Assembly (NCBI GenBank): GCA_900314165.1
Contig: OMUE01000004.1
Location: forward strand, 1 to 8,439
DNA: 8,439 nucleotides
Direction of reading: 5' to 3'
Origin: an uncultured Acidaminococcus sp.
GTDB lineage: Bacteria; Bacillota_C; Negativicutes; Acidaminococcales; Acidaminococcaceae
The translations under genes and the position numbers were made by a program. The notes below the pieces were generated by a model. That model saw only the letters and a program-made list of their open reading frames with translations, made no database searches and was not told where the DNA came from. Below, piece by piece: positions 1-8,154 of this stretch; the stretch's first letter is position 1, and the number at the start of each line of letters is the position of its first letter.

Positions 1-21
1 AAGAGTGAAGAGCGAAGAGAA
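1..21 (+). repeat. Heptad repeat tract, GYGAARA family (copy A)
   Basis: The window opens inside a purine-rich tract of 7-base units (AGAGTGA, AGAGCGA, AGAG), the same family found at 1446-1476, 3445-3473, 3526-3556, 5541-5568, 6482-6510 and 6697-6728. Bases 3-8 read GAG TGA, the register in which other copies end a protein. This suggests that an upstream plus-strand gene stops at base 8, but too little of it is present to call that gene. Confidence 0.7.
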
Positions 22-809: not shown

Positions 810-1463
810 ATGAATAAGGTTATAAAAGCTCTGAGCTGTGCAGGTCTGGCAGCCCTGCTGCTGACCGGCTGCGGATCCCAGGCTAAGACGGGAGCCACAA
901 AGAAAGCTGCAGCAAAACCGGCAGCCCAGACGGCTCAGGCTGCAGCTTCTGCACCTAAAGGCAATGGCAAATTTACCGTCACCATGACCTATGACTATAA
1001 CGGTGAAAGAATCATGGCCTCCAATCAGCTGGCTGCCTGGGTGGAAGACGCTCAGGGGAAAGTGGTAAAGAATTTGTTTGTAACGTACTTTACCGGTAAA
1101 GGCGGCTATACGAAACGGAAAGAATCCCTGCCTCTGTGGGTCAGCAAAGCCAATCCGGCTAAGATGGATGCGGCAAAACTGGATGCCATCACAAAATCCA
1201 CTCCATCCACCGGCAAGCAGACTGTGGTCTGGGACGGCACGGATGACGCAGGCAAGCCTGTAGCTGAGGGGAAATATACTATGTATCTGGAAGGCACTTT
1301 GTACTGGAGCAGCGATTTCCAGGCCCATGCGGTCATCGATACGACGGCAAAAGGCGAACAGAATCTGAAAGTGGACCAGAAGTTCACAGAGGACAAGAAA
1401 GAACACAGAAATATGATCCAGAATGTGGCGGTGAGCTATAAATCAGTGAAAAGCGAAAAGTGA
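810..1463 (+). CDS. DUF2271-type predicted exported lipoprotein
   Basis: A 217-residue exported lipoprotein. Residues 1-20 are a signal peptide ending in a lipobox (LTGC), with Cys21 as the lipidation site. Residues 25-50 are an Ala/Lys/Gln-rich linker. Residues about 54-211 resemble DUF2271 predicted periplasmic proteins: AAWVED, a GGYTKRKESLP segment, and a FlgD-like beta motif WDGTDDAGKPVAEGKY ending near residue 156. The family has no firmly known activity; members I recall are exported and often lie near flavin or iron-sulfur redox genes, in line with the flavoenzyme next door. AGGAGGGG lies 7 bases before the ATG. The last residues (VKSEK) and the stop are encoded by the heptad tract at 1446-1476, so this tail is probably not part of the ancestral domain. 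It has its own promoter and a strong terminator behind it. Confidence 0.85.
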   Translation: MNKVIKALSCAGLAALLLTGCGSQAKTGATKKAAAKPAAQTAQAAASAPKGNGKFTVTMTYDYNGERIMASNQLAAWVEDAQGKVVKNLFVTYFTGKGGYTKRKESLPLWVSKANPAKMDAAKLDAITKSTPSTGKQTVVWDGTDDAGKPVAEGKYTMYLEGTLYWSSDFQAHAVIDTTAKGEQNLKVDQKFTEDKKEHRNMIQNVAVSYKSVKSEK

Positions 1464-1489
1464 AAAGCGAAAAGTGGCCGCATAGCGGC
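1446..1489 (+). repeat. Heptad tract (copy B) with attached GC hairpin
   Basis: Four 7-base units alternate GTGAAAA and GCGAAAA (1446-1473), then GTG and a hairpin GCCGC-ATA-GCGGC (1477-1489). The tract overlaps the end of the lipoprotein gene, and its third unit supplies the TGA stop at 1461-1463. A similar GGCCGC-NNN-GCGG hairpin follows the copies at 3526-3556 and 6697-6728 when these are read on the minus strand. Confidence 0.85.
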
Positions 1490-1497
1490 AGAATAAA

Positions 1498-1542
1498 GAG
1501 ACTGTGAAGAAATGAACACCTCATTTTTCACAGTCTCCTTTT
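1498..1542. terminator. Bidirectional terminator between convergent genes
   Basis: The left arm 1498-1515 and the right arm 1521-1537 form 17 base pairs with a single bulged G at 1509 and a 5-base loop (ACACC). CCTTTT follows on the plus strand, and CTTTATT follows on the minus strand. It sits between the lipoprotein stop (1463) and the flavoenzyme stop (1545) and should end both transcripts. Confidence 0.88.
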
Positions 1543-1544
1543 GG

Positions 1545-2546
1545 TTATTTGTTTTCCAGCATCAGCTTGCCAAAACCGGCGTCCTTCAGGAACGGCCGGG
1601 CGGCGCCGATGAGGTCGGCTTGGCCGGCGGCTAACAACTGCTCAGCAGCCTCACGGGTCCAGATACCACCGGTCAGGAGGACGGGGATATGGACGGATTT
1701 CTTGATGGCTTCCGAGGCATCCCGGAAATAACCGGCGTCCGTACGGCCGGGCAGCGTATAGAAGCACAGGCCCCCGGTGACGCTGATGTAATCCGCACCA
1801 GCAACTTCAATGAGTTTAGCTGCTGCAGCCCCGTCCTCAATGGTGCTGCCTCCGGGTGTATAGTCACAGGCACCCAGTCGCAAGCCTACGATAAAGTCGT
1901 CTCCTGCTGCTTTGCGGACAGTCTGCAGGACCTGCCGCTGCAGCAGCGTCCGGCCTTCGATTGTGCCGCCCGTATAGGCGTCACTCCGATGGTTCGTCAG
2001 GGGAGAATAGAATTGGTTCAGCAGATAGCCGTGAGCAGAATGGATTTCCACGCCGTCAAAACCGGCTTTTTTAGCCCTCAGAGCGGCTGCCACAAAGGCG
2101 TCGATGAGCTCACGGATCTCCTCCAGGCTCATAGCATGGGTGTTCTGCAGCTTATCTTTAGGGGTGCGGTCCAGTGGACTTACCAACCCGCTGGGACTGA
2201 TGCCCTCTAAAGGAACCACGTCCTTGCGCAGGCTGGCTCCCGCATGGGAAATCTGTAACACAGCTTTGCTGCCGTTTTTGTGGATGGTCTCCGCCAGCTG
2301 TGTGAGGCCGGGAATATACTTGTCATCGCAGCTGCCCAGCTGGGGCGCCGAAGCCTGGCCATTGGGCAGTACAAACGTGTGCTCTACAACGACCAGGCCC
2401 ACATAACCGCCCTGAGTGCGGCTGTCGTAATAGGCCAGATGGTTTTCGTTTACAAAGCCTTTTTCGGCAAACCGCAGGTTCGTGGGCGCCATGACCAGGC
2501 GGTTGGAGAATTCCGTATTTCTAATTGTAAGAGTCTGTTCAAGCAT
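1545..2546 (-). CDS. Old Yellow Enzyme-family NADH:flavin oxidoreductase (short form)
   Basis: A 333-residue FMN-dependent TIM-barrel enzyme of the Old Yellow Enzyme family, which reduces activated C=C bonds with NAD(P)H. Motifs in order: NRLVMAP (15-21), LQISHAG (97-103), the substrate-binding pair His169/His172 in HSAHGYLLNQFYSP, Arg223 in the barrel, LTGGI (291-295) and GAARPF (314-319) at the FMN phosphate. The length matches single-domain YqjM-like members. The C-terminal [4Fe-4S]/FAD domain of 2,4-dienoyl-CoA reductase types is absent, so it should take electrons directly from NAD(P)H. The residue aligned with the redox-tuning Cys of YqjM is Thr22. AGGAGGG lies 5 bases before the ATG, tight but usable. 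Its promoter is divergent from the HD gene. Substrate unknown; it could act on dietary enones, bile-acid or xenobiotic double bonds. Confidence 0.93.
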   Translation of the reverse strand: MLEQTLTIRNTEFSNRLVMAPTNLRFAEKGFVNENHLAYYDSRTQGGYVGLVVVEHTFVLPNGQASAPQLGSCDDKYIPGLTQLAETIHKNGSKAVLQISHAGASLRKDVVPLEGISPSGLVSPLDRTPKDKLQNTHAMSLEEIRELIDAFVAAALRAKKAGFDGVEIHSAHGYLLNQFYSPLTNHRSDAYTGGTIEGRTLLQRQVLQTVRKAAGDDFIVGLRLGACDYTPGGSTIEDGAAAAKLIEVAGADYISVTGGLCFYTLPGRTDAGYFRDASEAIKKSVHIPVLLTGGIWTREAAEQLLAAGQADLIGAARPFLKDAGFGKLMLENK

Positions 2547-2562
2547 GATAGCCCTCCTAGTT

Positions 2563-2591
2563 TTGAGATTATGCTGATTCTATTGTATCAT
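2563..2591 (+). promoter_or_regulatory. Promoter for the HD-domain gene
   Basis: TTGAGA (2563-2568), a 17-base spacer and TATCAT (2586-2591) make a good sigma-70-type promoter. Transcription would start near 2598, giving a leader of about 100 bases that holds the TTAGGGA heptads and the hairpin repeat at 2631-2681. It overlaps the minus-strand -10 of the flavoenzyme. Confidence 0.6.
2582..2590 (-). promoter_or_regulatory. Extended -10 promoter for the flavoenzyme
   Basis: Read on the minus strand this is TGATACAAT, an extended -10 (TG, one base, TACAAT). No strong -35 is seen; TTAAAC at 2606-2611 is the nearest. It shares bases with the plus-strand TATCAT box, so polymerases for the two genes probably exclude each other. 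Confidence 0.5.
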
Positions 2592-2593
2592 AA

Positions 2594-2630
2594 ATAGGGA
2601 TTAGGGTTTAAGGAGTTAGGGATTAGGAAG
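2594..2630 (+). repeat. TTAGGGA heptad tract
   Basis: Units are ATAGGGA, TTAGGGT, TTAAGGAG, TTAGGGA and TTAGGAAG: three 7-base and two 8-base units. It is a second, different 7-base repeat family, found once here, at the 5' end of the HD-gene leader and touching the hairpin repeat at 2631. Confidence 0.65.
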
Positions 2631-2681
2631 TTGTCGCCCCCGAAGGGGGAGAGGGCCATCGTAGATGGCGAGGGGGCAGGC
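2631..2681 (+). repeat. Hairpin repeat, leader family (copy 1)
   Basis: The unit begins TTGTCGCCCCC and ends GAGGGGGCAGGC. It holds hairpin CCCCC-GAA-GGGGG (2637-2649) and hairpin GCCATC-GTA-GATGGC (2655-2669). The first GCCCCC can also pair with the last GGGGGC (2672-2677), giving an alternative fold that encloses both. Copy 2 is at 5474-5529. This copy lies in the leader of the HD gene, ending a few bases before its ribosome site (GGAGG at 2687-2691). Confidence 0.85.
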
Positions 2682-2699
2682 AGCGCGGAGGTTTTGATT

Positions 2700-3455
2700 A
2701 TGGACATAGTCTTATTGCAAAATAGATTTTCTTTCTATGTTAAAAATTTTTATCTTACTGATCCTGCCGTCCAACTGAAATACGACCATTCTCTTCGTGT
2801 CAGCGTAAACTGTAGAGTGATTGCCGAAAGTCTGGGCCTCAGCCAGGATGATGTGGACCTGGCCTATGCTATGGGTCTCTTGCACGATATCGGCCGCTTT
2901 GAACAGCTGCGGCAGTACCATACGTTTTCCGATGGACGCAGCATGAATCATGCGGAGTACGGTGCCCGGTATCTGTTTGACAAGGGCCATATCCGGGAGT
3001 TCCTGGAGGATAGCAGCCAGGATGACATTCTGAAGGAAGCCATTCGGCAGCATAGTGCCTATGAGCTGACGGGCTCTCTCACGGACCGCCAGCGCCTATT
3101 TTGTCAGCTCTTACGGGATGCTGATAAAGTGGATATCTTCCGGGTCTATGCCCAATATGCCCACAAGCTGCCCATTATCTGGAATGCTGACTGGAGGGAA
3201 CTTCTGCAGGCTTCTGTGACACCGGCAGTCATGGCAGCCGCTCGACAGAAGCATTCCATCAAAACCGCATTAAAAAAGACCCCCATGGATTACTTCATTG
3301 GAGGTCTGTGTATGTATTTTGATTTAGTCTACCCGAAATCCCGTCAGCTTGTCAGGGAGCAGGGATTTTATACAAAGCTGCTGGAAGTGCACTCTTGCAA
3401 TGACGATGCGGAACGGTGCTTGGAGGAAGTGAGAGGCTTGATTAGCGAAGAGTGA
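2700..3455 (+). CDS. HD-domain phosphohydrolase
   Basis: A 251-residue cytoplasmic protein with a metal-dependent HD domain over about residues 25-150. Visible ligands are His30 (DHSLRV), the His62-Asp63 pair (LLHDIGRFEQ), His84 (NHAEYGA), His118 (RQHSAYE) and the Asp140/Asp142 pair (LRDADKVDIFR). These are the hallmarks of HD phosphohydrolases, which hydrolyse nucleotides or other phosphoesters; the substrate is unknown. Length suits the roughly 250-residue stand-alone clostridial type. I start at the ATG at 2700, with GGAGG 8 bases upstream. The longer frame from 2631 would translate the hairpin repeat as 23 extra residues and is rejected. The protein ends GLISEE, where the last residues and stop come from the heptad tract at 3445-3473. 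It is a single-gene unit, convergent with the SGNH hydrolase. Confidence 0.9.
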   Translation: MDIVLLQNRFSFYVKNFYLTDPAVQLKYDHSLRVSVNCRVIAESLGLSQDDVDLAYAMGLLHDIGRFEQLRQYHTFSDGRSMNHAEYGARYLFDKGHIREFLEDSSQDDILKEAIRQHSAYELTGSLTDRQRLFCQLLRDADKVDIFRVYAQYAHKLPIIWNADWRELLQASVTPAVMAAARQKHSIKTALKKTPMDYFIGGLCMYFDLVYPKSRQLVREQGFYTKLLEVHSCNDDAERCLEEVRGLISEE

Positions 3456-3473
3456 AGAGCAAAGAGCGAAGAG
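3445..3473 (+). repeat. Heptad tract (copy C, left arm)
   Basis: Units GCGAAGA, GTGAAGA, GCAAAGA and GCGAAGA plus a final G. The second unit provides the TGA stop (3453-3455) of the HD gene. It is complementary in 25 of 29 positions to 3525-3553 on the other side of the gap, so the two can form a long stem. Confidence 0.88.
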
Positions 3474-3505
3474 AAATGCTCCGCACAATGTTGTTATACT
3501 GCTTT

Positions 3506-3523
3506 AAAAATTCCGCAGAGCGG
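3506..3523 (-). terminator. Candidate terminator for the SGNH hydrolase gene
   Basis: On the minus strand a short hairpin, CCGC-TCT-GCGG (3513-3523), is followed by AATTTTT. The stem is short but GC-rich, and the larger 29-nt arms at 3445-3473 and 3525-3553 lie on either side. It may act as an intrinsic terminator for the minus-strand gene. Confidence 0.45.
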
Positions 3524-3525
3524 CC

Positions 3526-3556
3526 TCTTCGCTCTTATCTCTTCGCTTTTCGCTTT
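3526..3556 (-). repeat. Heptad tract (copy C, right arm, inverted)
   Basis: Read on the minus strand the units are GCGAAAA, GCGAAGA, GATAAGA and GCGAAGA, beginning right at the TAA stop (3555-3557) of the SGNH hydrolase gene and followed by the GGCCGC-type hairpin. It is the inverted partner of 3445-3473. Confidence 0.87.
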
Positions 3557-4877
3557 ACATAAGCTTTCCAAGCCCCCTATTAATCACCCCCGCCATGATT
3601 TCCTTCATATTGGCATCGCCGTGGAGGCCGTCCAGGGCCATGCTGGTGGGAAGCACGCTGCCCATGCGTTCGAAAGGAGCAGCAGTATCAATGTGGGGCT
3701 GGGTGCGAATCCAAGAGTTGACAGCAGCAAAGGCTTGCTGCCAGCCGCTGGCGGTAGGTTCATCAAAAGCTTTTTGGATGTTATCCGGATTTACCGGTGC
3801 CAGGGTCAGCAGGATGGGGGTCATGCCATTGGCACGGGCCTTTTGCTGGATCTCTCGCAGGTCGCTGATGACGGATTCCGCAGAAACCCCGCCACGGAGG
3901 CTGTTGGTGCCGCCCATAATCAGCAGATATTTCACATGGAAAGGCAGTACATCCTTTTCAAACCGGTCCACCATCATTTCGCTGGTGTCGCCGCTTTCGG
4001 ACAGGTTGATGGTGGGAATGTTCAAATAGTGAGCATAGCTATAGGAAAAATCCACAGGGGAGAAGGACATATGGCCACCGCCATGGGAGATGCTGTCTCC
4101 AAAAATAGCCACGTTATATTTGGCGGAGGGTTCCGTGGTGAATTTTTCCGGCAGGCTCCACTGGCCAACGGCATTGCCAGCCTTGTCCATGCCCCGGACC
4201 CGCCAGTAATACGTGCCGATACGGGCTTCTTTATCATACAGGTCTGTCAGGGGAGTGACTTCGGAGAATACGCGATACTTGGAAGGAGCAATGCCGTCCG
4301 GATTTTCCGGATAACGGTTTATGACTTCTACTTCATACTGGCTGGCTCCGGGATTGCCCGTATAGGCATAGACCGGGTACAGCAGGGTGCTGCCCTTGCC
4401 GTCTTCGTAGGTAGGTCTGGGCACAGGAGCATTACGAGTCACGGTCTTCAGGTGGCTCTGAAGCAGCTGGGGAGCTGTAAACGGGGAAGAGGGATTGCCA
4501 TCCAGGTCATAGGAACGGACCCGGAAGTACATGGGCTGGCCCCCTTCATAGGAATCCAGGACAGCTTTTGCCAGCAGCAGACTGTTTACGTATACATGCT
4601 TGTTTCTATATTCGGCATTTTCTACCGGTTTATTGGAATCAATATTTTGAGGAACTTTTGAGAAAAGTTCCACTTCGTACCGGACGGCCTGCAGGTCTGC
4701 GGGCCATTGCAGGAATTCCAATGCTTTATCCCCGTCTGTCACTTGAACCTGTTGAGTGATCTGAGCAGCCGCAGCTTTCCTGAGATGATGTTTCCTGTGG
4801 CCCAGAAGCAGGGCAGGTACCAGGGACAGCAAAACCAGACCGATAGAACCGTATTTTAAAACCTGTTGTTGTAACAT
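3555..4877 (-). CDS. Membrane-anchored SGNH/GDSL hydrolase with two FN3-like domains
   Basis: A 440-residue exported esterase-type protein. Residues about 9-26 are a hydrophobic N-terminal anchor with basic residues (HRKHHLRK) just after it. Residues about 45-135 and 150-248 look like two fibronectin-III/Ig-like beta domains; YYWRVRGMDKAGN is a typical FN3 strand pair. The catalytic SGNH domain covers about 254-440: block I GDS with Ser262, block II Gly296, block III GGTN with Asn325, and block V DGLH with Asp416 and His419, so the catalytic set is complete. Such enzymes remove acyl or acetyl groups from lipids, polysaccharides or peptidoglycan outside the membrane; the substrate is unknown. 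I start at ATG 4875-4877 because AAAGGAG (4886-4892) lies 8 bases upstream; the ATG eight codons earlier falls upstream of that ribosome site. Own promoter at 4938-4966. Confidence 0.88.
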   Translation of the reverse strand: MLQQQVLKYGSIGLVLLSLVPALLLGHRKHHLRKAAAAQITQQVQVTDGDKALEFLQWPADLQAVRYEVELFSKVPQNIDSNKPVENAEYRNKHVYVNSLLLAKAVLDSYEGGQPMYFRVRSYDLDGNPSSPFTAPQLLQSHLKTVTRNAPVPRPTYEDGKGSTLLYPVYAYTGNPGASQYEVEVINRYPENPDGIAPSKYRVFSEVTPLTDLYDKEARIGTYYWRVRGMDKAGNAVGQWSLPEKFTTEPSAKYNVAIFGDSISHGGGHMSFSPVDFSYSYAHYLNIPTINLSESGDTSEMMVDRFEKDVLPFHVKYLLIMGGTNSLRGGVSAESVISDLREIQQKARANGMTPILLTLAPVNPDNIQKAFDEPTASGWQQAFAAVNSWIRTQPHIDTAAPFERMGSVLPTSMALDGLHGDANMKEIMAGVINRGLGKLM

Positions 4878-4937
4878 ATAGATAACTCCTTTCCAACACA
4901 ATCCTTAGGGTTGTTATGTTTTCCTTTCGTTATCTGT

Positions 4938-4966
4938 ATGATATAGCAGTTCTCAAGAAATGCCAA
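4938..4966 (-). promoter_or_regulatory. Promoter for the SGNH hydrolase gene
   Basis: On the minus strand, TTGGCA (4961-4966), a 17-base spacer and TATCAT (4938-4943) form a good sigma-70-type promoter, with AT-rich sequence upstream. The leader would be about 55 bases with no evident structure. Confidence 0.62.
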
Positions 4967-5040
4967 ATACTTATAATAAATGCATAAAACAGCCTAAAAA
5001 GCATTTTAATAGTAGACTCTAAATAATTCTTTCTGGTATA

Positions 5041-5056
5041 GGAATTTGCAAATACC
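5041..5056. other. Near-palindromic 16-base site
   Basis: A perfect 10-base palindrome ATTTGCAAAT (5044-5053) is flanked by GGA and ACC, so 14 of 16 positions are symmetric. It is isolated in AT-rich intergenic DNA about 75 bases upstream of the SGNH gene -35 box. It might be a regulator site; no owner can be named. Confidence 0.3.
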
Positions 5057-5073
5057 TTTCTGTTTATACTAAC

Positions 5074-5161
5074 CCGTAGGGGCGCATCGTGAGATGCGCC
5101 CACTAAGAAATCTTCTAAATTAATGGCTTTAGCGGGCTTATCTTACGATAAGCCCCTACGG
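5074..5161. repeat. 88-base palindromic element with 10-bp terminal inverted repeats
   Basis: The ends are CCGTAGGGGC (5074-5083) and GCCCCTACGG (5152-5161), a perfect 10-base inverted repeat. Inside each end is a second 9-bp hairpin: GGGCGCATC-GTGA-GATGCGCCC (5080-5101) and GGGCTTATC-TTAC-GATAAGCCC (5134-5155). The hairpins and the terminal pairing share bases, so they exclude each other. The 32-base middle is AT-rich with no open frame. No target duplication is visible next to it. It looks like a small mobile or palindromic intergenic element of the GTAGGGGCG type; only one copy is in the window. Confidence 0.75.
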
Positions 5162-5349
5162 AGTCGTCCAGAACTTGGTATATGTTTTGAGTTATAAGTG
5201 AAAATTAATAACGATTTTCCATACTACTTTATGCCGCTCATTATGCTGGTAAAAAATGAAGGACAGATGAACAAATTGGGAAGAAAATAGGAACTATAGG
5301 TTAGTACGTTATTTATACCTGCTGTAAAAGGCATAATTTAAGCGTTATA
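5162..5349. other. AT-rich intergenic stretch without a recognisable feature
   Basis: This is part of the roughly 720-base gap between the SGNH hydrolase and the LysR gene. I see no open frame with a ribosome site, no strong hairpin and no repeat in this stretch. It could hold operator sites for the downstream promoter, but none can be named. Confidence 0.5.
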
Positions 5350-5358
5350 TGATATAAT
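5350..5358 (+). promoter_or_regulatory. Extended -10 promoter for the LysR regulator
   Basis: TGATATAAT is a perfect extended -10 (TG, one base, TATAAT); no clear -35 is present. A start near 5365 would give a leader of about 230 bases that runs through the whole hairpin cluster and an inverted heptad tract to the ribosome site AAAGGAGG at 5582-5589. A closer promoter is not visible. Confidence 0.5.
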
Positions 5359-5390
5359 AAGAATATCTTGATAAAATGATTAGTGGGCTA

Positions 5391-5467
5391 GTGGTGCTCT
5401 GCAAGGCCCCACCACCGTGCCATTCGGCACGGTTCCCCTCCCCTGCGGGGATGACAGGGCTTTGCCC
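5391..5467 (+). other. Chain of small hairpins in the LysR leader
   Basis: Consecutive stems: GTGGTG/CACCAC (5391-5396 with 5410-5415), ACCGTGCC-ATTC-GGCACGGT (5414-5433), TCCCC-TGC-GGGGA (5439-5451) and GGGC-TTT-GCCC (5457-5467). The first two overlap by two bases (5414-5415) and so compete in part. With the hairpin repeat that follows, this gives about six stems in 130 bases. No known riboswitch pattern was recognised. The stems lack U-runs, so they do not look like terminators; they more likely come from dispersed palindromic repeats. Confidence 0.6.
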
Positions 5468-5473
5468 AGCGGG

Positions 5474-5529
5474 TTGTCGCCCCCGCAGGGGGAGAGGGCC
5501 AGATGCTTGCATCTGGCGAGGGGGCAGGC
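5474..5529 (+). repeat. Hairpin repeat, leader family (copy 2)
   Basis: The frame is the same as at 2631-2681 (TTGTCGCCCCC start, GAGGGGGCAGGC end). The first hairpin is CCCCC-GCA-GGGGG, and the second is a longer stem, GCCAGATGC-TT-GCATCTGGC (5498-5517), in place of GCCATC/GATGGC. Pairing is kept although sequence and length differ by 5 bases. The element is directly flanked by CAGCGGG on both sides (5467-5473 and 5530-5536), which resembles a target-site duplication. Confidence 0.85.
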
Positions 5530-5540
5530 CAGCGGGCTGC

Positions 5541-5568
5541 TCTTCGCTCTTCACTCTTCGCTCTTCAC
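5541..5568 (-). repeat. Heptad tract (copy D, inverted)
   Basis: Four clean 7-base units, TCTTCGC, TCTTCAC, TCTTCGC and TCTTCAC, are the reverse complement of GCGAAGA and GTGAAGA. Unlike the other copies it lies in a 5' leader, 13 bases before the LysR ribosome site, and is not next to the 3' end of a recognisable gene. Confidence 0.87.
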
Positions 5569-5596
5569 TATCCAAGTAACCAAAGGAGGCCCCATC

Positions 5597-6499
5597 ATGG
5601 AACTTCGCGTCTTAAAATATTTCCTAGTCGTGGCTCGGGAAAAGAACATTACACGAGCTTCAAAAATGCTTCATATTACACAGCCGACTCTGTCCCGGCA
5701 GCTGCATCAGCTGGAGCAGGAATTCGGTACGGCCCTGTTCCGCCGGGGTAAGCATAATATTTCCCTGACTACAGCAGGCCTGCTGCTGTACCGCCGGGCC
5801 CAGGAATTTGCGGAACTGGAAGAGAAGACCTCTCAGGAAATGCAGAACAGCGGGGAATCCATTGCCGGGCCCGTGGCTATCGGCATAGGGGAAACGGTAT
5901 CCCTGAATGATGTGGCTGAAGTCATCAAAGCCTTCCAGGAGGAGTATCCCGACAGCTATTTCGATATCTATACGGGCGTTGCAGATGACGTAAAGGAGCG
6001 GATGGAAAATGGCTTGCTGGACTTTGGTGTCCTGTTAGATCCTGTAGATATCAGTGAATATAATTTCATCCATCTGCCCAATACGGACTTCTGGTCCGTC
6101 ATTATGCCGGAAGATCATCCTTTAGCCGAAAAAAAGGAAATCACAGCAAAAGATCTGGCAGGTGTTCCTTTGCTTATGGCCAGACGGGAAGCCGTACGGA
6201 ATATGGTGGAAAACTGGTTTGGCAAATACAAGGATGACCTTGTCATTCCTGTTTTTATGAACCTGTCTGCTTATAATAAGAGCATCCTGGTCCGCAAAGG
6301 CCTTGGTGTAGCATTGGGTCTGGACTTTGGCTTTGCCGGTAAAGGTCTCGTATCCCGGCCTCTCAGCCCCAGACTCATCAACCATTGCTCCATTGCCTGG
6401 AAAAAGAACCGCTTCCAGTCGCCTGTAGTGAACCGGTTTGCAGAGTATATGGAGGACTGGTTCGCACAGGAACCTGAGTCAGCGAAAAGCGAAGAGTAA
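5597..6499 (+). CDS. LysR-family transcriptional regulator
   Basis: A 300-residue LysR-type regulator of typical length. Residues 1-60 are the winged helix-turn-helix: MELRVLKYF at the start, the HTH around 18-40 (ITRASKMLHITQPTLSRQL) and LFRRGKHNISLTTAG as the wing. A linker helix (about 60-88) leads to the periplasmic-binding-like effector domain (about 91-295), which starts GPVAIGIGET. The start at 5597 is set by AAAGGAGG (5582-5589) 7 bases upstream; the longer frame runs back into hairpin repeats and is rejected. The tail SAKSEE and the TAA stop come from the heptad tract at 6482-6510. It converges with the polyferredoxin gene. LysR regulators often control a divergent neighbour, but the divergent SGNH gene starts about 720 bases away, so the target is unclear. 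The effector is unknown. Confidence 0.93.
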   Translation: MELRVLKYFLVVAREKNITRASKMLHITQPTLSRQLHQLEQEFGTALFRRGKHNISLTTAGLLLYRRAQEFAELEEKTSQEMQNSGESIAGPVAIGIGETVSLNDVAEVIKAFQEEYPDSYFDIYTGVADDVKERMENGLLDFGVLLDPVDISEYNFIHLPNTDFWSVIMPEDHPLAEKKEITAKDLAGVPLLMARREAVRNMVENWFGKYKDDLVIPVFMNLSAYNKSILVRKGLGVALGLDFGFAGKGLVSRPLSPRLINHCSIAWKKNRFQSPVVNRFAEYMEDWFAQEPESAKSEE

Positions 6500-6523
6500 A
6501 GAGCGAAGAGGCGGCCGCTGGCC
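6482..6523 (+). repeat. Heptad tract (copy E) with GC hairpin
   Basis: Units GCGAAAA, GCGAAGA, GTAAAGA and GCGAAGA (6482-6509). The third unit supplies the TAA stop (6497-6499) of the LysR gene in the same register as copies B and C. GGCC-GCT-GGCC (6513-6523) follows. It is complementary in 25 of 29 positions to 6696-6724. Confidence 0.87.
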
Positions 6524-6536
6524 AATCTTGTAATGA

Positions 6537-6582
6537 AAAAAATCCGCATACTACTGAAAAATCAGTGGTATGCGGATTTTTT
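6537..6582. terminator. Strong bidirectional terminator
   Basis: Arms 6537-6557 and 6562-6582 pair over 21 positions with one G-U and a 4-base A loop; each arm ends in A or T runs so that both strands have a U-tract. It lies between the convergent LysR and polyferredoxin genes and should end both transcripts. Confidence 0.93.
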
Positions 6583-6653
6583 ATACGAATAACTAACATA
6601 AGGAGATTACTTTCAAGCGCTAGAACTTTTCTAACCCCCGACAACAGGTTCTA

Positions 6654-6674
6654 TCATCTGTCATCTATCATCTT
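6654..6674 (+). repeat. TCATCTN heptad tract
   Basis: Three units, TCATCTG, TCATCTA and TCATCTT. It is a third 7-base repeat family in this window, between the terminator and the inverted heptad tract of the polyferredoxin gene. Confidence 0.6.
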
Positions 6675-6683
6675 TTCCTAGCT

Positions 6684-6728
6684 CCGCGCAGCGGCCTCTT
6701 CGCTCTGCACTTTTCGCTCTTCGCTTTT
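6684..6728 (-). repeat. Heptad tract (copy F, inverted) with GC hairpin
   Basis: On the minus strand the units GCGAAGA, GCGAAAA, GTGCAGA and GCGAAGA (6697-6724) follow the TAA stop (6727-6729) of the polyferredoxin gene almost at once, then a CCGC-TGC-GCGG hairpin (6684-6694). This is the same arrangement as at 3513-3556. Confidence 0.87.
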
Positions 6729-8154
6729 ACCAAGCCAGTTTCCTCAAATCCACCTGCTGATCCACAGGATACACATTGATTGCCTTAGGGTCAGCCGGGC
6801 AGACAGCGTGGCAGGCGCCGCAGCCCAGGCATTTCTCGAAGTTGACCTGGGGACGGACCCGTTTGTCCTTGCCGGTGACCAGATCGATGGCTCGGGCAGG
6901 GCACTTCATGGCACAGCGGCCGCAGTGGGCGCCACGGATGTCTACAAGGCATTTGCTGCGGTCTACGGAGGCCACGCCAATCTGGGTATGGCGCTTTTCT
7001 TCCAAGGTTATGGGACGGATAGCGCCTGTAGGGCAGGCTTCACTGCAGGCATGGCAGTCGTACAGGCAATGGCCCAGGCTATGGTCCATATAGGGCTGTC
7101 CCATGCGGTCCAAGCCTTGTGTCCAGGTAAAGGGCCGTAATACATGGCCCGGGCAGCGGGAGATGCAAAGATGGCAGGCCGTGCAGTTCTGGGACAGGTG
7201 AGTCTGGCTGAGAGCACCGGGCGGCAGGATGAAAGGCTTCGTGGATTGGGCCAGCACAGGCTTTAAGGCCATAGGACCTTTGGCCAAGGCTACAGCAGCA
7301 GAACCGGCGGCAATCGCCGTTCCTGCCAGGAACTGGCGGCGGCTGATTGCGCTGCCCTGTGGCACTGATTCTGCAGGCTGTACATTCTTTACGCCTTTAC
7401 GGGCAAAGGTAATAGCTCTCTTGGGGCAATGGCTCACGCACTGCAGGCAATCCACACAGCGGCTGGTATCTACAGTCTTATTTTTTACATCGATACAGTT
7501 GGACGGGCACAGACGTTCGCACAGGCCACAGCTGATGCATTTTTCTTCGTTAAAGCGAGGCTGATAAAGCGCAAAGCGGCTGATAGAACCGAGAAGCGTC
7601 CCTGCAGGACAGATGGTGTTGCAGTACAGTCTTCCGCCTTTGATAGCAAAAGCGGAGATGATGACCCAGTACAGCAGCGCACCGGCTAGTGCAATCGTAC
7701 TGCCCACAGACAGCAGGCCTCTGGCCGTACGCCAAGGGGTAAGCCATAAATCTGAGGCCAAGCGGCCGTAAATGCTGTAGGGATCCAGCAGCAGGAACAG
7801 GCTGGTGCTGCCCAGCAGCAGGGAGGCTGCAGCCAGGAGCAGGAAACCATAGCGAAGCTTTGCATGTTCGGCTTTGTAGGTTCCTTTTTTCTTCTTCCAG
7901 AGTTTACGAGCCAGGAAATGGACCCCATCCTGATAAATCCCCAGGGGACAAATCAGGCTGCAGTAGATTCGGCCTATGAATAAAGTAACCAGAAATAAGA
8001 AACCCAGGACTACAACATTGCCTGCCAGCAGGGCTGGAATCAGCTGGGCTTTGGGCAGCAGGGGAACTGCTATGCCCATAAACGCTGCCGTACAGAATAA
8101 AATGCTGGCAAAAGCCGCGATAGTCTTTATATGAGAAAGAGTTTTTAACCGCAT
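6727..8154 (-). CDS. Six-cluster polyferredoxin: NapH-like membrane part fused to NapG-like part with internal Tat signal
   Basis: A 475-residue membrane iron-sulfur protein. Residues about 8-170 hold four membrane segments (about 10-31, 39-61, 102-123, 148-170) and two CxxxCP motifs (Cys65/Cys69, Cys178/Cys182) typical of NapH. Two [4Fe-4S] motifs follow: Cys206/209/212/216 and Cys233/236/239/243. At 271-278 stands SRRQFLAG, a twin-arginine signal, with a hydrophobic stretch to about 290. The C-terminal part resembles NapG with four more clusters: Cys324/327/330/334, Cys363/367/370/374, Cys402/411/414/418 and Cys442/445/448/452. NapH and NapG pass quinol electrons to periplasmic reductases, so this fusion could carry electrons across the membrane to an exported acceptor; no reductase is encoded in the window. 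The start is set by AAAGGAGG (8163-8170), 8 bases upstream. Confidence 0.92.
   Translation of the reverse strand: MRLKTLSHIKTIAAFASILFCTAAFMGIAVPLLPKAQLIPALLAGNVVVLGFLFLVTLFIGRIYCSLICPLGIYQDGVHFLARKLWKKKKGTYKAEHAKLRYGFLLLAAASLLLGSTSLFLLLDPYSIYGRLASDLWLTPWRTARGLLSVGSTIALAGALLYWVIISAFAIKGGRLYCNTICPAGTLLGSISRFALYQPRFNEEKCISCGLCERLCPSNCIDVKNKTVDTSRCVDCLQCVSHCPKRAITFARKGVKNVQPAESVPQGSAISRRQFLAGTAIAAGSAAVALAKGPMALKPVLAQSTKPFILPPGALSQTHLSQNCTACHLCISRCPGHVLRPFTWTQGLDRMGQPYMDHSLGHCLYDCHACSEACPTGAIRPITLEEKRHTQIGVASVDRSKCLVDIRGAHCGRCAMKCPARAIDLVTGKDKRVRPQVNFEKCLGCGACHAVCPADPKAINVYPVDQQVDLRKLAW

Follow-up and report, generated by a model that had tools for sequence, protein, structure and literature searches.

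Short tandem heptads of the form GYGAARA recur across the window (the whole 8439-base stretch of DNA analysed here) and coincide with the ends of most of its genes. This raises the question of whether such a repeat is placed or retained at stop codons, and of how it came to be there. Seven genes were recovered in the window with a codon-usage gene caller, and five of them end in or against a tract, as the earlier note had claimed: three plus-strand stops lie inside tracts and two minus-strand TAA codons touch one (Table 1). The tracts are indeed located where that note had placed them, with 16 overlapping matches to three GYGAARA units, allowing up to three mismatches, against 0.01 expected. 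Altogether, six tracts are complete, with four to five units each, and one is cut; GG is absent from all seven.

Table 1. Genes and heptad tracts of the window.
Feature	Position	Strand	Relation to genes and tracts
Heptad tract	1..21	+	cut by window edge; preceding gene outside window
Acetyltransferase gene	stop ending at 678		no tract at stop
Four-unit heptad arm	1446..1476	+	gives TGA (1461-1463) of DUF2271 gene
DUF2271 lipoprotein-like gene	stop ending at 1463	+	stop inside tract
Flavin oxidoreductase gene	3' end at 1545		no tract at stop
Four-unit arm	3445..3473	+	gives TGA (3453-3455) of HD-domain gene; left half of inverted pair A
HD-domain gene	stop ending at 3455	+	stop inside tract
Heptad arm	3526..3556	-	starts at GDSL-lipase TAA; right half of inverted pair A
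GDSL-lipase gene	TAA at 3555-3557	-	touches tract 3526-3556
Four-unit arm	5541..5568	-	before LysR start, antisense to LysR; not at a stop
Four-unit arm	6482..6510	+	gives LysR TAA (6497-6499); left half of inverted pair B
LysR regulator gene	stop ending at 6499	+	stop inside tract
Heptad arm	6697..6728	-	starts at Fe-S gene TAA; right half of inverted pair B
Polyferredoxin-like Fe-S protein gene	TAA at 6727-6729	-	touches tract 6697-6728

The window arms share more than their heptads. A GC-rich piece (GGCCGC..GCGG) lies 3' of several of them: the arm at 1446 is followed by a GGCCGC..GCGGC hairpin and next by a terminator-like hairpin, and the arm at 3526 continues into GGCCGCTCTGCGGAATTTTT on its own strand. 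Over 45 nt the arm at 3526 is 84% identical to that at 6697 (family D1). The arm at 5541 has no heptad partner in its own spacer and abuts a second repeat family.

Part of the searches with the window proteins returned distant relatives only. The Fe-S protein is closest to metagenome proteins without a name (82 and 75%), followed at 44% by further matches that include a Megasphaera hexanoica protein, and its best matches among 380 Negativicutes genomes are 47-48% identical. The window has no Rfam match at gathering scores, and no plasmid or phage record matches it.

Linkage of tracts to sense stops

The proposal that the repeat is targeted to, or kept at, translation ends was examined in three probable Acidaminococcus genomes (G003, G006 and G007), a fourth Negativicutes genome (G230) and stretches from IMG/VR. 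Stretches around tracts were chosen among the pattern matches listed with up to two mismatches, a few in G007 and G230 being omitted. A tract was taken as stop-linked when a sense stop lay within it or up to 20 nt before it, and the null was random placement outside gene interiors. Sense stops are enriched in every set tested, at about four to seven times random placement, and antisense stops are not, lying at or below chance (Table 2). The observed count was reached by none of 200 simulations in any of the four genomes, in the window, or among the IMG/VR matches listed, from which 9 too-short stretches, duplicates, tracts inside genes and tracts near an end had been excluded. All gene calls were made with a home-made codon-usage caller, a limitation that we counted against our best explanation. 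The linkage of tracts to sense stops is real.

Table 2. Tracts and stop codons by set. IMG/VR values hold among the matches listed; columns 7-9 condition on the spacer and score tract starts up to 20 nt from the facing stop.
Set	Stretches	Stop-linked tracts	Null mean	Tracts dropped as inside genes	Antisense stops	Start near facing stop	Expected	Simulated P	Solitary, sense stop before	Solitary, antisense stop after
G003	21	7/19	1.8	2	0	8/12	2.1	0.0001	1/19	0
G006	13	7/13	1.8	1	1	7/7	4.7	0.009	2/13	0
G007	20	10/19	1.6	6	1	11/15	5.4	<0.0001	4/21	1
G230	24	22/44	5.5	1	1	22/25	17.0	0.007	8/12	1
Window		5/6	0.7	0	0	5/5	3.0	0.026	0/2	0
IMG/VR	at least 120	47/102	12.3	17					23/98	9

Solitary tracts, that is, those without an inverted partner, are informative here, as the supply of a stop by the tract itself plays little part in them. 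Among 163 such tracts, the window apart, 38 have a sense stop just before them and 11 an antisense stop just after. Among the IMG/VR matches listed, gene starts adjoin solitary tracts as 12 sense starts after the tract and 10 antisense starts before it.

The earlier note had also drawn attention to the shared register of the three plus-strand stops and to their tails SEK, SEE and SEE. Both are present, and both are automatic. When all Y/R choices of (GYGAARA)4 are enumerated, every one of the 512 stops is a TGA at unit positions 2-4, and each of the 256 stops with nine bases ahead is preceded by SEK or SEE; the register and the tails are thus forced by the spelling of the unit once a TGA lies in the tract. 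The LysR stop, a TAA in a GTAAAGA unit, occupies the same unit place as TGA elsewhere, and the pyrimidine strand of GYGAARA arrays contains no stop. We accordingly rejected the fixed register as a signal, since it is a tautology of unit spelling. Gene frame relative to the tract does vary, with counts of 3, 7 and 7 over the three frames for 17 in-tract stops in G003, G006 and G007, whose offsets from the tract start are -4 (1), -11 (7), -18 (7) and -25 (2), one further value of -40 being left out. The related idea, that the frame in which the heptad was copied always yields a stop, fails on the units themselves, as those reading GCGAARA give none. The three plus-strand tracts of the window close 2, 1 and 1 of the three frames, and all three genes are read in a frame that is closed. 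This hints weakly at selection for the stop: the chance is about 0.07, but these tracts were picked because a stop lies in them.

Among tracts of at least three units, four is the commonest number in the window (4/6), G003 (12/22), G007 (12/26) and G230 (33/59), and three in G006 (6/12, with four in 5/12). By a stricter measure, three units also lead among the IMG/VR matches listed (50/102, with four in 37), so that a preference for four is a feature of some genomes and not of the GYGAARA unit everywhere. Unit number at one shared filled site differs between species (18 vs 5), although such sites are uninformative on how often tracts are shared because they were found through the tracts of both species. 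Phase-variable switching of genes by unit number is not expected at gene ends.

Several other repeats occur near the tracts. The second family, GTTGTCGCCCCCG..GGGGGAGAGGGCCA..TGGCGAGGGGGCAGGC, is present twice, at window 2630-2681 and 5473-5529, one copy directly adjoining the arm at 5541. Two further short-repeat families, one with a 15-base period and GATTAGG-like halves and one of TCTATCA heptads, lie at window 2601-2632 and 6650-6673, and other heptad-like runs are present in G230 and G007 spacers. An inverted repeat, CCGTAGGGGC..GCCCCTACGG, spans window 5074-5161; a unit like CCGTAGGGGC is found behind several G003 tracts, and a repeat mosaic therefore seems to be common to the window and this genome. 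A near-identical, insertion-sequence-like stretch (AAACCGTACYCCTTGTCAAGGACAG..) lies just after 5 of 21 G003 tracts (L061, L072, L074, L077 and L078) and one site in G011 (L324), as if a mobile element targeted the repeat. In G230, a CRISPR-like array (L103/L105, near the start of contig C27) lies within about 1 kb of three heptad elements of the palindromic kind and of one lone arm. On contig C1 of G003, plus-strand tracts lie mostly before about 1.13 Mb and minus-strand tracts mostly after, which looks like a leading-strand bias in counts uncontrolled for gene orientation.

Facing arms and transcript ends

The window has three convergent spacers, and in two of them arms face each other, as the inverted pairs 3445(+)/3526(-) and 6482(+)/6697(-), which the earlier note had not mentioned. 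Such arms could be functional 3'-end elements: folded in the mRNA downstream of the stop, they would protect or terminate the transcripts of both converging genes. We consider this reading unlikely, though it has several points to recommend it. The predicted folds are strong: pair A reaches about -55 kcal/mol, with z scores of -7.1 and -7.6 on the two strands, and pair B has a z of about -10, to which a terminator-like hairpin lying between the two arms contributes. The G230 genome adds a regular architecture. Of the 23 inverted pairs found in it, 19 have gaps of 10-32 nt; the element typically comprises four heptads, a core mostly of 10-32 nt and four inverted heptads, it often fills the gap from the stop to the next gene, and co-directional genes flank every one of the 38 tracts classified. 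Rehm et al. (2015, PMC4692102) report more transcript starts and stops at quadruplex-capable heptads.

Against such a role, the arms of a pair are not matched to each other. In the window, non-partner arms agree as well (86 and 91%) as partners do (87 and 84%). Across 20 G230 elements partner arms are 0.687 alike vs 0.717 for non-partners, a difference caused in part by the elements not having been turned to one direction, and of 2000 permutations all but one give a mean at least as high as that of the true pairs. Covariation between facing arms was thus not found in the window or G230, where partners are no more alike than non-partners. Inverted pairs are also almost absent from the probable Acidaminococcus genomes, with one in G003 and none in G006 or G007, and the tracts turn over between species.

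Terminator-like sites provide an indirect test of the role in transcript 3'-end formation that had been suggested, and they lend it no support: they occur up to 250 nt downstream of the stop in 12 of 52 tract-linked cases vs 122 of 464 others, though in 3 of 5 in the window, where 10 such sites compare with 8.9 in shuffles. Of the 12, 11 begin after the tract. On this overall lack of difference we discarded the ideas that tracts stand in for terminators or accompany them, and no general terminator niche was found across all sets. Selection on the hairpin found no support in these comparisons, yet may act. With no pair-specific matching and with tract turnover, the facing-arm hairpin would most likely be a by-product of a shared consensus and not a maintained terminator.

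Proposed arrival of tracts at gene ends

Three genes were compared with their orthologues. Gene A carries one in 1 of 9 genomes (G006), and it starts exactly where most of the others stop: eight genomes end in EEYK, EEYKK or similar, and in G006 the tract has extended EEYK to EEYKSAE. This one clean empty-site comparison shows no visible target duplication. For gene B, three of seven examined genomes carry a tract, G003 has a remnant and three have none (G009, in which the gene is split over two contigs, was left out), and gene C finds a match in 7 genomes, one of which carries a tract. Close relatives of the window HD protein end in SEE, SKE, KMTEDR or DKNYE. An 89% relative of the LysR protein ends in LAKSDEDPAGQ, which may be read from its protein sequence as an altered tract.

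On balance, and with modest confidence, we favour the view that GYGAARA tracts are a neutral, dispersed extragenic repeat that is tolerated at gene ends and able to close them. The repeat arm would consist of about four heptads, often followed in the window by a GC-rich hairpin. Preformed tracts would reach gene 3' ends in any reading frame, the native stop included; arrival exactly at the native stop is seen for one gene (A), vs eight orthologues without a tract. As the unit sequences indicate, a tract entering a coding end would have its frame closed within a few codons by a unit TGA or TAA, and because of this the insertion should cost the gene almost nothing. Selection would presumably remove copies from coding or promoter DNA, and copies change unit number once in position, as the difference between species shows, probably by slippage. 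Tolerance does not fully explain how tightly tracts sit at stops in spacers of 400-1300 bp, together with the strand bias of solitary tracts.

A mobile element of MITE or REP-like kind, with an enzyme that targets gene ends, appears rather improbable. Copies are dispersed and some lie within larger shared units, and a pattern for the short palindromic version matches in 22 of 380 genomes, eight of them with more than one site, while a reversed-pattern control matches none; in the 14 genomes matched only once, the hairpin may be unrelated. No mobilising enzyme for the repeat was identified. The REP-type transposase PF01797 is present in 3 of 8 tract-rich genomes vs 6 of 12 others, which include G011 and four genomes with few copies and are not clean controls, and hence no RAYT link is seen. 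Unit sequences also vary among copies, and no target duplication is visible at gene A. Least likely of all is local birth by slippage at purine-rich gene ends already holding GTGAAGA-like sequence around TGA: the unit does contain TGA and resemble Lys/Glu codons and a Shine-Dalgarno-like run, and unit number varies, but a native stop duplicated in tandem should still sit in unit 1, where only 1 of 17 in-tract stops is found (G003, G006 and G007; first units reading GTGCAGA carry none), and gene A appears to have gained its tract cleanly at the native stop.

Relation to known heptad repeats

REP/BIME elements with RAYT transposases are extragenic palindromes that form mosaics with other repeats and are common after genes; GYGAARA differs from them in its heptad arms and in showing no PF01797 link. 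Tandem heptanucleotides, the STRR, are dispersed in Calothrix. These STRR are named in a passage of PMC4692102, which gives no stop linkage for them, and their units are other than GYGAARA.

The earlier note knew of no stop-linked heptad family, and in this it was mistaken. As described by Rehm et al. (2015, PMC4692102), the GGGAATC and GGGGA(C/T)T heptads of Xanthomonas and Nostoc are mostly intergenic and prefer four units. They lie on the coding strand no more than 50 bp from the stop, overlap included, are rare between divergent genes and occur as 70 opposed neighbouring cases in a genome with 186 repeats. The authors tied the four units to G-quadruplexes and found no function. GYGAARA is likewise enriched on the coding strand at or overlapping the stop in all sets. 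Opposed repeats occur in the window and G230, but hardly in the three probable Acidaminococcus genomes, and four units are the leading size in the window, G003, G007 and G230, but not in G006 or among the IMG/VR matches listed. Unlike the published heptads, GYGAARA has no G-run and cannot form the proposed quadruplex, and it occurs in Negativicutes, where G230 and some neighbours carry a compact palindromic form. GYGAARA shares the stop position without the G-runs, and quadruplexes are therefore not the common cause of that position. The TAACTGA direct repeats of Beggiatoaceae, described by MacGregor (2015, PMC4679880), are dispersed intergenic heptads with stops in all three forward frames, and they overlap the stop of the upstream gene in 13 cases; unlike GYGAARA, they lie just before start codons and have a proposed translational role.

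It is doubtful, in our opinion, that stop-anchored heptads make up a single class general to bacteria, whatever the unit sequence and with no need of quadruplexes, in which some process would set short, coding-strand-oriented heptad arrays at translation ends in unrelated lineages. We found no description of the GYGAARA family in the literature searched, which left most subscription journals outside. Matches to the letters of the repeat were unrelated by title, and among the matches listed for Acidaminococcus with intergenic repeats nothing was on topic by title or start of abstract.

The layout is ordinary in kind, and the GYGAARA family adds to it stop-linked heptads without G-runs. The published case tied a preference for four units and a position near genes to possible G-quadruplexes, which GYGAARA does not need, and the stop-linked layout is now seen in a further phylum. 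Annotators should bear in mind that a repeat whose in-frame stop always falls at one place may owe this to its spelling, and that short SEE, SEK or SAE tails in such genomes can be derived from the repeat.
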